From Candidatus Neomarinimicrobiota bacterium (GTDB lineage Bacteria; Fidelibacterota; Marinisomatia; Marinisomatales; TCS55), in the NCBI GenBank assembly GCA_018651745.1, contig JABIDL010000030.1, positions 1 through 64,000 of the forward strand: a DNA stretch of 64,000 nt. The letters run 5' to 3'. The position numbers were made by a program, and so were the translations under genes. The notes beneath the pieces were generated by a model. It made no database searches, was not told the origin of the DNA, and saw only the letters and a list, made by a program, of their open reading frames with translations. This document shows positions 3,635-6,721 of this stretch, one piece after another. The first letter of the stretch is position 1. Each line of letters starts with the position of its first letter.

Positions 3635-4168
3635 ATGTTTCTTCCGTCACATATTGCATCAGGATACATTTTGGGGAACGCTTTGAGCTGCAAAAATCCC
3701 ACTTGGACAGATGGTCCGTTTTTGTCGGTTTTACTCTTTTCTTCCATCCTTCCGGATGTGGATGGAATTTGGTCAAATACCGTGGCGGGGCATCATTCGT
3801 TTCTTCATACACCCATTTTTTGGATATTCCTTTTTATAGGAATGACGGGCTTGGGGTCGATTTCAAACATCCGCTGGATGAAACCCGTTTCTCTTGGAAT
3901 TGTTCTGGGTGCGATGCTGCATCTTTTCACAGATTGGATTACGGCGCGAACGGTTGGGATTCAGTGGTTATATCCGTTTAATATGACCAATTTTGATGTT
4001 TATTCTGTTCAGCCCGAAAAAGGACAAATCCCGGTTTGGGATATGATTCGCGATCCGTATTTTTCGTTTTACATTGAGAACAAAGTATTGCTTTGGTTTG
4101 AAATTGGCATGAATGGACTTGCCTTAATCTTATTTGGGAAAAATAAATTACAGGGAAATCGAGTATGA
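3635..4168 (+). CDS. YdjM/DUF457-like membrane-bound metal-dependent hydrolase
   Basis: A 177-aa membrane protein with the family's typical polar residues between hydrophobic segments: H6 in PSHIASG, D41/D43 in LPDVDG, H53/H54/H58 in GHHSFLHTP, and H96/D100 in LHLFTDW. These are the presumed metal ligands of the YdjM/LexA-regulated hydrolase family (PF04307). The physiological substrate is unknown; some relatives are linked to membrane stress or lipid metabolism. The stop codon overlaps the next ATG as ATGA (4165-4168), so it is probably translationally coupled to the barrel gene that follows. Confidence 0.8.
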   Translation: MFLPSHIASGYILGNALSCKNPTWTDGPFLSVLLFSSILPDVDGIWSNTVAGHHSFLHTPIFWIFLFIGMTGLGSISNIRWMKPVSLGIVLGAMLHLFTDWITARTVGIQWLYPFNMTNFDVYSVQPEKGQIPVWDMIRDPYFSFYIENKVLLWFEIGMNGLALILFGKNKLQGNRV

Positions 4169-5154
4169 AATCTATTCTGCAAATTCTGACACCGATATTT
4201 TTGTCAACTTTGTTGTGGGGTCAATGACCTCTCTGAACGAATCCAAGCCTCCCGGTCGGGACGGCCAATTCTGGTGTTGGATTAGATAAAGGTGATCTTA
4301 TCGTGGGGGCGAATATGATGGTTCAAAATATCGAGTGGTGGCATAGTGAGTTAATAGAATCCGGTGGAGACCACGAAGGGAATCTGAAATCAAGCTTGGC
4401 AGAAGTAAATGCAACCTATGGGATTTCTGATAACTGGAACCTGAGTGTGGATGTTATGACGGGAAACAGATCCATGGATTTTTATCCTGACGCGAATATT
4501 CATCACCGCGATGAAAACAAAATGGGCATCGGTGATACGAGAATTACGCTTCGCTATTTGATAGAAAATACAACATTTGGCCCCGGTCAGCGGGTTTTTA
4601 TTGGAGGCGGATTAGTTATTCCTTCAAAGAATTCATTGACTGAAAATCCATTTAAACTTGGGGAATCCGGAGAGACACACACACATTTTGATTTGAGCGA
4701 AGGCGTGGTTAAAGCGCATACAGAATTCCAATATTTCAGGCGATCAGAAGGATCCATTTTTCCGGGAGGCGTTTTGAAAGTGGAAATACCGTTAGAAACG
4801 AATCAATACGGTTTCAAAGCGGGAATCCAATTATCCGGTGCGATTCTGGTTTATTTTCACACCCAATCTTTTTGGAGTGGGATTCCATTTTTACATATGC
4901 TGGGTCAGTATCGAAACCCAGATATTTGGGATGGAGAAGAAGCACCGAATTCAGGGGGAAGTGTACTGCAAATTGGCGGAGGCTTAACCTTTTCGAAGAA
5001 CGGATATCTATTAACTGGATCGGCTCGTGTACCGATATATTTTAATGCAAGTGTGGCAGGCCAAGAAGAAAAAGATGTATCAAATAGAACGGATGTTTGG
5101 GGAGGATCCTTAAGTATTAGAAAAACAATTAATCTGTTTAAATTTGAGGACTAA
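4165..5154 (+). CDS. Outer-membrane barrel-like protein with two in-frame UGA codons (candidate selenoprotein, otherwise disrupted gene)
   Basis: ATG 4165 overlaps the preceding stop (ATGA) and opens a clean signal peptide, MKSILQILTP...LLWGQ. The same frame then meets TGA at 4225-4227 and 4234-4236. After that it stays open to 5154 and encodes an amphipathic, Gly/aromatic-rich protein resembling a transporter-type outer-membrane barrel. Read through, it gives a 329-aa protein with Q-U21-P-L-U24-T, where a CxxC would be unremarkable in a secreted metal-linked protein. A 7-bp hairpin with a GGUC loop follows the second UGA (4247-4265). Selenocysteine insertion explains an intact frame, intact coupling and two UGAs spaced like CxxC. 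Alternatives are two nonsense mutations, or sequencing errors with internal initiation at GTG 4303. UGA is an ordinary stop elsewhere in the window. Confidence 0.55.
4247..4265 (+). promoter_or_regulatory. SECIS-like hairpin
   Basis: GCCTCCC (4247-4253), loop GGTC (4254-4257), and GGGA-C-GGC (4258-4265) form a 7-bp stem with one bulged C (4262). The stem base is 10 nt after the second UGA and the loop 17 nt after it; the loop is 26 nt after the first UGA. Bacterial SECIS elements are short hairpins just downstream of UGA with a G, usually GU, early in a small loop, and the E. coli fdhF element has a GGUCU loop and a bulged base. The match is by eye only. Confidence 0.45.
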
Positions 5155-5182: not shown

Positions 5183-5518
5183 ATGAAAAAATCACTCATT
5201 CTAATCGCCGGAGCAGCAATGATTATTGCAGCATGTGGCGGAGAAAATAAAACAGCAGATGTGGCACTTAGCACAATTCAATGCGGAATGTGCACATCTA
5301 CAATCGAGAATGCTTTATCTGATGTCAAAGGTGTAGTAAGTATCAAAATCGATGAAGAAAAGAAAGTTGGGAAAGTTGTGTATCAGGCAGGAGTTGTTGA
5401 TTTGGCAGCAATTGAAAATGCGATAGCAGCTGTTGGTTACAATGCCAACGATACCAAAGCCGACCCAAAAGCATATTCCGAACTTGCAATGTGCTGTAAA
5501 GTCCCTGGCAAGGAGTAA
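5183..5518 (+). CDS. HMA-domain lipoprotein (periplasmic metal-binding, MerP-like)
   Basis: A 111-aa precursor. MKKSLILIAGAAMIIAAC is a lipoprotein signal with the lipobox Cys at 18, so the mature protein should be membrane-anchored in the periplasm. Residues ~26-92 form a heavy-metal-associated fold with the metal site C34-G-M-C37, in the family's usual place at the first loop. The tail has an extra vicinal pair C104-C105, a possible second thiol site. ATG 5183 is chosen over upstream in-frame ATGs because AAGGAAACAAC precedes it as a ribosome site and it restores the lipobox. It lies 28 bases after the barrel gene; soft-metal capture or transfer to the barrel or CDF-like protein is inferred. 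Confidence 0.8.
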   Translation: MKKSLILIAGAAMIIAACGGENKTADVALSTIQCGMCTSTIENALSDVKGVVSIKIDEEKKVGKVVYQAGVVDLAAIENAIAAVGYNANDTKADPKAYSELAMCCKVPGKE

Positions 5519-5554: not shown

Positions 5555-6721
5555 ATGCTAATCCCGTTTTTGTTTACTTTTTTATTTGCAGGACGCTTTA
5601 CGGATCCACCTGTTGGCGTTGGTAGCCGCTACCCCAATATCACCGAAACTGATCGCGGATTTACCCTTTGTTGGTTTGAACCGGTAGGAAAAAAATTCAG
5701 CCTAAAAATGTCTGAATTTGACGGAAACTATTGGACTAATCCGGTTACAATTACTATGGGCGAGAACTATTTTATAAACTGGGCAGATTTCCCCTCAATT
5801 TATTATTTAAATGATAATCGGTTTGCCGCACACTGGCCCCAAAAGAGCGGAACCGGTCCGTATGATTATGATGTGAAAGTTTCGCAGTCATTCGACCGCG
5901 GAAAAACATGGACAACCTCTGTGACGCCGCACCGCGATAAGAAATCCGGCGAACATGGTTTCGTTTCGTTCTTCACCAATTCCAAAGGTGGCCTTGCGTT
6001 GGCTTGGCTGGATGGCCGGAATATGTCCGATGGACATGGCGGAGGAGATTACGGAGCTATGAATTTGTTCACAACCACTCTGGATCTGGATGGGAATCTT
6101 GGACCCGAAATAATGCTGGATGATAAAGTTTGTGAATGCTGCCCGACATCGGCGGTTAATACCGAAGATGGTGTATTGGTGGCATACAGAGATCGTTCCG
6201 AAACTGAAATCCGCAACATAAATGTGGTAAGATTAACCGAATCATCTTGGACAGAACCCGAGCCACTTCACAATGATAATTGGAAAATTTCCGGTTGCCC
6301 GGTGAACGGACCGAAGCTTGCGGCTAACAGTAAAAATATTGCAGCTATATGGTTCACGTCACCCAATGAAACACCACAAGTTCTGTTTTCTTTATCCAAA
6401 GATTTGGGGGAATCCTTTAATGATCCTGTAAGATTAGACAGCGGAATGCCGATTGGCAGGACCGACCTCATTTGGCTAGACGGACGAAAGGTTCTGGCAA
6501 GCTGGATGGAATACGGGGAAGACAATACACACATTATTTTTAGGACAATATCCATTGATGGGCGGTTAGGGAAACCGTTTATTGCAGCAGAAATTGACGC
6601 CGGTAGGGCCAGCGGTTACCCGGTGATTACTCGTATCGGAAGAAAGATTTTCTTGGCATGGACGAGCAGCGGCGAATCCGGGAAAGTGGAATCGAAATGG
6701 GTTCCGGTTTCAAAATTTTGA
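5555..6721 (+). CDS. Secreted sialidase-fold (BNR) beta-propeller with CxCC motif
   Basis: A 388-aa protein with an N-terminal hydrophobic export signal and sialidase/BNR-like repeats, including Asp-box-like SFDRGKTW (residues 112-119) and SKDLGESF. I see no Arg triad proving sialidase activity. It carries C193-E-C195-C196-PTS and GC248PVNGP, signatures of a widespread exo-alpha-sialidase-like family whose true function is not established. The clustered Cys, together with the HMA lipoprotein 36 bases upstream, make a periplasmic metal-binding or metal-sensing role a reasonable inference. It is the last gene of the metal-handling cluster. Confidence 0.65.
   Translation: MLIPFLFTFLFAGRFTDPPVGVGSRYPNITETDRGFTLCWFEPVGKKFSLKMSEFDGNYWTNPVTITMGENYFINWADFPSIYYLNDNRFAAHWPQKSGTGPYDYDVKVSQSFDRGKTWTTSVTPHRDKKSGEHGFVSFFTNSKGGLALAWLDGRNMSDGHGGGDYGAMNLFTTTLDLDGNLGPEIMLDDKVCECCPTSAVNTEDGVLVAYRDRSETEIRNINVVRLTESSWTEPEPLHNDNWKISGCPVNGPKLAANSKNIAAIWFTSPNETPQVLFSLSKDLGESFNDPVRLDSGMPIGRTDLIWLDGRKVLASWMEYGEDNTHIIFRTISIDGRLGKPFIAAEIDAGRASGYPVITRIGRKIFLAWTSSGESGKVESKWVPVSKF

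Follow-up and report, generated by a model that had tools for sequence, protein, structure and literature searches.

The window, by which we mean the whole 64,000-nucleotide stretch of DNA analysed, carries a gene for a predicted outer-membrane β-barrel in which two in-frame UGA codons follow directly on the signal peptide. Both UGAs are almost certainly decoded as selenocysteine (Sec), as judged from comparison of genes and genomes, with no experiment showing Sec insertion. The complete reading, a true selenoprotein combining a COG4313/FapF-fold barrel with a soft-metal site, is considered probable. Metal handling as the function is favoured with rather less assurance, being an inference without a metal-binding experiment behind it.

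The gene occupies a single frame from ATG 4165 to TAA 5152–5154, interrupted only by the two TGAs (Table 1), and its ATG overlaps the stop of the preceding gene, TGA 4166–4168. The signal peptide, the two TGAs, the open frame to 5154 and the intact ATGA coupling claimed in the preliminary description were all borne out on re-reading. The encoded N-terminal region is MKSILQILTPIFLSTLLWGQ-U-PL-U-TNPSLPVG... (in longer notation, MKSILQILTPIFLSTLLWGQ-U-PL-U-TNPSLPVGTANSG...), with a Gln-Sec-x-x-Sec motif directly after the signal peptide. Cleavage before Gln20 was inferred, with no prediction tool behind the site; if it occurs there, the Sec residues are residues 2 and 5 of the mature protein. Since TGA is the ordinary stop in most neighbouring genes, the genetic code is not changed. 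Standard annotation truncates the gene: the product is called from GTG 4303, the only start downstream of the second UGA (UGA2), and the signal peptide is lost. Between UGA2 and GTG 4303, comparison of the window with genome G050 gave 17 identical codons, 4 synonymous and 1 nonsynonymous.

Table 1. Features of the double-Sec barrel gene and its immediate neighbours (positions in the window).
Feature	Position	Strand	Evidence
YdjM-family membrane protein, coupled upstream (ATGA overlap)	3635..4168	+	PF04307, 4e-17
Double-Sec outer-membrane β-barrel gene (predicted)	4165..5154	+	329 codons and stop TAA; open with TGA read as Sec
Signal peptide, residues 1–19 (inferred)	4165..4221	+	Hydrophobic N-terminus ending in a small residue and Gln in nearly all homologues
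UGA1, putative Sec21	4225..4227	+	UGA in 74/75 distinct homologues, TGT in one (locus L164)
UGA2, putative Sec24	4234..4236	+	UGA in 74/75 distinct homologues, TGT in one (locus L043)
SECIS-like hairpin, 7 bp, one bulge, GGUC loop at 4254–4257	4247..4265	+	MFE structure, covariation, leave-clade-out covariance model
His60 and His70 codons, first outer-loop region (predicted)	4342..4374	+	His70 in 73/76 and His60 in 57/76 homologues
His113-His114-Arg115-x-Glu117, second outer loop (predicted)	4501..4515	+	H113 and H114 75/76, R115 72/76, E117 75/76
His172-x-His174-Phe175, third outer loop (predicted)	4678..4689	+	76/76, 75/76 and 75/76
Lipoprotein with heavy-metal-associated (HMA, MerP-like) domain, CGMC motif	5183..5518	+	PF00403, 7e-9; TIGR02052 MerP, 4.5e-9, below cut-off

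A profile search found the barrel in 83 of the 245 genomes of the phylum Neomarinimicrobiota, whose present NCBI name is Fidelibacterota; a further 45 loci, almost all under the title Candidatus Neomarinimicrobiota/Marinimicrobia, were obtained from the genome collection. UGA stands at both positions in 73 of 75 distinct genes, and the two exceptions are UGA/UGU (U..C; G119) and UGU/UGA (C..U; G061). The UGAs had been said to fall where a CxxC would be natural, and the alignment agrees: both positions hold UGA or Cys and nothing else, with Cys once at each. Such exchange with Cys alone, once per position, is what classically identifies Sec. Tandem paralogues were also found, with CxxU in G002 and G016 (QCALUNAPPPPVGG), where a hairpin with the GGUC loop is kept, and with CxxC in G035 (QCAMCNSPPPPAGG). 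Dozens of MAGs and single-cell genomes of independent origin have both in-frame TGAs at the same places; this recurrence rules out assembly error and takes the place of a check against reads.

Some records stand apart. One barrel copy (L162, G074 C11:11786-12778) has an additional TAA after the motif in a genome where neither selB nor tRNA-Sec was detected, and it looks as if it had decayed after loss of the Sec trait or contained a sequencing error. Barrels in records labelled Methylococcales, Rhodobiaceae and Flammeovirgaceae (L089, L108, L112) were set aside as probably misbinned, the gene order around them being that of Marinimicrobia. L122, titled Dehalococcoidia, also bears the barrel and is not among the three with that gene order. 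No relative of the barrel was found in the plasmid collection.

The family is also present in a second phylum, in 66 of 84 genomes, including complete single-contig genomes. In G283, a genome outside Fidelibacterota, two relatives 18% identical to the window protein have the motif QESUGAUSNP, with both Sec and the HHR and HxH histidine motifs invariant. The genes of the second phylum are mostly of the UxxU type, reading QESUGAUSNP[AT]IP, and are accompanied by paralogues with one UGA (QESCPAUSNPVLPP, CxxU); G417 has two paralogues, UGAU and CSAU.

Downstream of the motif, the sequence GCCTCCC-GGTC-GGGACGGC, in which the bulged base is C, folds into the hairpin of Table 1, and the earlier drawing of it (7 bp, one bulge, GGUC loop, 10 nt spacing) matches the MFE fold. 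Measured from UGA2 and UGA1, the stem begins 10 and 19 nt downstream and the loop lies 18 and 27 nt away, respectively. Both loop distances are within the range for bacterial SECIS elements, a range that was untested here. Single-sequence folding energy was rejected as proof of a SECIS, because it is not significant: of 200 dinucleotide shuffles, 78 were as stable or more so (z −0.24); against codon-preserving shuffles, z was −3.8. The significance of the hairpin is thus comparative, not a matter of the window's energy alone.

Across the 75 distinct genes, the position of the hairpin after UGA2 is fixed and four variable pairs covary (0 of 2000 permutations each); stem pairs 24–39, 25–38 and 27–36 each exceeded all 2000 permutations. 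The loop is GGUC in 52 of 75 genes and AGUU or AGGU in the remainder, and the third bases of its Pro and Val codons change jointly (G..C or A..U) in 75/75. A small apical loop with a G is a feature of the bacterial SECIS consensus (PMC1088965). Loop position 31 is G in all 75 genes, so that a stem-loop just downstream with a G in the loop, as expected of a bacterial selenoprotein, is present, and its stem covaries.

The pairing test and the covariance model were based on a 49-gene alignment that leaves out the window's own clade. In this alignment, 94.9% of cells are paired, compared with 76.9% in shuffled and 31–62% in slid versions, and both sides have changed in 67 cells versus 21.7 in shuffles, which amounts to covariation at synonymous positions. 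The leave-clade-out model matches window positions 4225–4275 at 39.1 bits (E 1.1e-8), the next match in the window having an E of 0.88; genome-wide, it gives one strong match only (E 3.2e-7; next 0.04). Rfam at its gathering score returned nothing in the window. By its pattern of substitution, the hairpin is under selection as RNA.

A single hairpin so placed raises the question of whether only one UGA is decoded as Sec, the other being read by a near-cognate tRNA or mostly stopping translation. There is only one hairpin and UGA1 lies farther from its stem than UGA2; against this, each position is exchanged for Cys, and nothing else, in separate relatives, and G119 keeps UGA1 and the hairpin with Cys at position 24. 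Decoding of one UGA alone is accordingly regarded as very improbable. The retention in G119 suggests that one hairpin can serve UGA1, and the conservation of just one hairpin agrees with the proposal that both UGAs could share a single SECIS.

The assembly searched comprises 1.86 Mb in 43 contigs and is 95.8% complete. Together with the barrel, it encodes selA (502 bits) and selB (355 bits), adjacent on contig C40, a tRNA-Sec with anticodon TCA in the tRNA gene (UCA in RNA; 68.7 bits) and a selD over cut-off that has its own in-frame TGA, that is, a Sec-containing selD. All four genes that the preliminary description had named for checking, selA, selB, selC and selD, are therefore present. The barrel occurs in 46 of 121 genomes of the order; 38 of these 46 have selB and 3 more have tRNA-Sec, while neither was detected in the other 5, all of which are 60–86% complete. 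Comparison of selB or selC in barrel holders with selB in the rest gave p = 4e-4 (Fisher test), a value that is slightly generous because tRNA-Sec was sought only among barrel holders; with selB alone, p was 0.009.

If the TGAs were real stops or sequencing errors, the gene would be a pseudogene. TGA is formally a stop, and the G074 copy, with its additional TAA and no detected selB or tRNA-Sec, would fit such a reading; however, both TGAs recur in two phyla, the hairpin covaries, change is synonymous across the frame and the Sec machinery is encoded. The chance that the gene is a pseudogene is negligible, and comparative evidence may be taken to have refuted it in practice.

An AlphaFold2 model built with 42 homologues is a 12-strand barrel (pLDDT 85.6, pTM 0.81), and the protein is very probably an outer-membrane barrel. 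The best solved fold matches were FapF (PDB 5o65, Z 23.2) and the COG4313 channel 4rl8 (Z 23.1–23.2; rmsd 2.8 over 250 residues), followed by autotransporter barrels with Z near 17. Since residues 14–32, motif included, have pLDDT under 50 and the motif region is of low confidence in both models, there is no modelled contact between Sec and histidine. According to PMC4493636, the first 14 residues of 4rl8 fold into the lumen; by analogy, the Sec pair at mature residues 2 and 5 would lie in a matching plug. His70, His113, His114, Glu117, His172 and His174 are placed in the first three outer-side loops, an inference from DSSP strand order. The HHR and HxH motifs are invariant in the second phylum too, alongside both Sec.

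By sequence, no Pfam or NCBIfam model was above cut-off for the barrel. A scan of 20 members against Pfam (matches with E ≤ 1 listed) gave no family over cut-off, and the barrel is not placed in COG4313 by sequence. There were no meaningful sequence relatives in the PDB, and the viral structure library returned generic barrels only. The COG4313 channel Pput2725 (4rl8) resembles the window barrel in having 12 strands, and an N-terminal segment fills its lumen (PMC4493636); the two differ in sequence, with 10% identity and no family match. For COG4313, no Cys/Sec motif is described in that article, and the substrate is thought to be hydrophobic. FapF belongs to the same fold class; it has an added plug region and secretes amyloid, and no motif shared with the window barrel was found. 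PcoB, the copper-resistance outer-membrane protein (7pge), is a barrel tied to copper with a weaker fold match (Z 12.8), a sequence unlike that of the window barrel and no Sec.

The COG4313 match also admits an outer-membrane uptake channel for a small solute, such as a selenium compound or a hydrophobic molecule, with the Sec plug as a gate that makes intake responsive to selenium or redox state. The best fold match is indeed to an uptake channel with an N-terminal plug, but COG4313 membership by sequence is absent, and no selenium-uptake gene was noticed beside the barrel, whereas metal genes are found there. The same selenoprotein acting as such a channel is considered improbable.

These metal genes vary between clades. 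In 6 loci, the HMA lipoprotein gene directly follows the barrel gene and in each case lies on its strand. Genes near the barrel in the most distant Marinimicrobia clades include ArsR (12 loci), MerT or MerTP (9 loci, the best match being to NF033556 at E 7e-37) and an Fe-S CopZ-type chaperone over cut-off (12 loci); at other barrel loci, a CopA-like multicopper oxidase is nearby. Of the 245 genomes, 6 have true MerA (over cut-off); the barrel is also present in 5 of the 6, and the two genes are adjacent in G237 and G035. In the window's genome there is no MerA over cut-off, and the only mer link in the window is the MerP-like HMA lipoprotein. Encoding with MerT, MerP or MerA holds in part of the family only. 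In open-ocean clades, the neighbours of the barrel are gyrA/gyrB and other housekeeping genes; resistance can thus not be its role throughout the family, and a metal-resistance operon was rejected as the general explanation. Just 4 loci (cluster c23) have the YdjM-family gene next to the barrel, so this gene is probably not functionally essential.

Other genes of these loci were recorded separately. In the window, positions 5555–6721 encode a BNR/sialidase-like repeat protein (PF13088 below cut-off), found near the barrel in 6 loci (cluster c15), and positions 38–2491 a large protein with long repeated stretches, whose C-terminal segment (FALHQNYPNPFNPVTNIRF...) resembles a secretion sorting domain, judging by sequence only. 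A MerA/dihydrolipoyl-dehydrogenase-like flavoprotein in which UGA takes the place of the first Cys codon in the redox motif (GGTUVNEGCIPTK) occurs at L130 (G190 C48:3410-4768), L131 and L135 (G192 C7:65678-67039) and also in G193, G191 and G189. A hairpin, GACCTTGTTAAGGTC, follows the motif in L130, L131 and L135, and in G190, G192 and G193 the flavoprotein gene shares a contig with the selenobarrel, at a distance of a few kb; it is a candidate second selenoprotein of the locus. In another barrel family (L221, G155 C58; L222, G167 C210), which is probably related and has one Sec, only one UGA follows the signal peptide (QVSURRPVLPVG) and there is a hairpin with a GGUC loop. Further barrels at L138, L139, L141 and L223, near the selenobarrel or in the same genomes, bear two Cys in the N-terminal region (GQACCTIQGFNG, AQLCCTSG) and point to a wider superfamily of Cys/Sec-tipped barrels.

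In the mechanism proposed for the double-Sec barrel, both UGAs are decoded as Sec by the genome's own SelA, SelB and tRNA-Sec through one SECIS hairpin, the step for which the comparative evidence speaks directly. After signal-peptide cleavage, the protein would form a 12-strand COG4313/FapF-fold outer-membrane barrel with its N-terminus in the lumen as a plug. The diselenolate pair and the HHR/HxH outer-loop histidines may then make up a soft-metal site for Hg(II)/organomercury or Cu(I); this site would capture or gate metal at the outer membrane and pass it on to periplasmic HMA/MerP-type carriers, such as the product of the next-door gene, or shield these carriers. Since the window's genome has no MerA over cut-off and barrels elsewhere adjoin gyrA/gyrB, the metal function is an inference from motif chemistry, the histidines and part of the neighbourhoods, and is not demonstrated. 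The secreted diselenide/selenolate metal site of the preliminary description remains an inference, supported by the co-conserved histidines and the mer/copper neighbourhoods, with a redox role not excluded.

Such a role would make UxxU an outer-membrane redox centre, a selenol/diselenide couple that might, for instance, reduce oxidants outside the cell or sulfur/metal compounds, with metal binding not the main role. UxxU resembles the CxxC redox motif, the operon in distant clades includes the MerA-like flavoprotein whose redox motif has a candidate Sec of its own, and redox proteins are held to make up most of the prokaryotic selenoproteins (PMC13188914). However, the protein is a predicted barrel only, without a thioredoxin-like or other catalytic domain, there is no obvious electron source on the outer face, and the invariant histidines and metal-carrier neighbours favour metal. 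The same selenoprotein with a redox centre is therefore held to be unlikely, although a serious possibility.

Several known families share part of the metal-site reading. NF041115, the UxxU metal-binding (seleno)protein (HMA/MerP-like), also has two Sec in UxxU and a heavy-metal context; it is a small soluble HMA domain, whereas the window protein is a predicted 12-strand outer-membrane barrel without an HMA domain. Its model (cut-off 95 bits) gave no match to the barrel and matched only the HMA neighbour, at 33.8 bits and with Cys (CGMC) instead of Sec. NF045683, a MerT/CopZ fusion-like heavy-metal transport selenoprotein, places Sec in mercury/copper transport and weakly matches the MerT-like neighbours; it is an inner-membrane transporter, unlike the barrel. 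In a 2026 catalogue of 119 prokaryotic selenoprotein families (PMC13188914), the outer-membrane barrels are the GSU2204-family MtrB/PioB-like barrel (NF041027) and the FCYXU TonB-dependent receptor (NF049945), and the UxxU proteins are NF041115, FmdB-type and Prx-like. The two catalogued barrels have one Sec each and belong to other motifs and families, and the window barrel has no NCBIfam match.

The combination of barrel and UxxU is absent from the 119 families. NCBIfam 20.0 gave no relevant match to the barrel at E ≤ 0.5–1, and a keyword search of the Sargasso, GOS and deep-Sep papers showed nothing fitting the family. Since it is absent from the 2026 catalogue and nothing fitting came up in those papers, it is called a new selenoprotein family. 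It is common to two bacterial phyla, and none of the catalogues consulted lists it.

Proteins with two Sec are mostly rare or sporadic, and within a family the Cys forms usually prevail. In the present family, two close Sec at the tip of a predicted outer-membrane barrel are kept nearly without Cys forms across two phyla, one of which is an abundant ocean lineage (SAR406/Marinimicrobia). An ancient outer-membrane metal capture, with a permanent diselenolate site in the plug of the barrel lumen, Sec-Sec kept across two phyla and one hairpin recoding two UGAs nine bases apart, is put forward only tentatively and may easily prove wrong. If true, it would mean a selenium-dependent outer-membrane defence against, or scavenging of, mercury/copper, working in some clades alongside an enzyme that resembles mercuric reductase and is a selenoprotein too. 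To the short list of outer-membrane selenoproteins the family adds one candidate, and it is a clean natural case in which to test whether a single SECIS serves two UGAs. It also makes the role of selenium at the cell surface testable, as mercury/copper handling versus redox.
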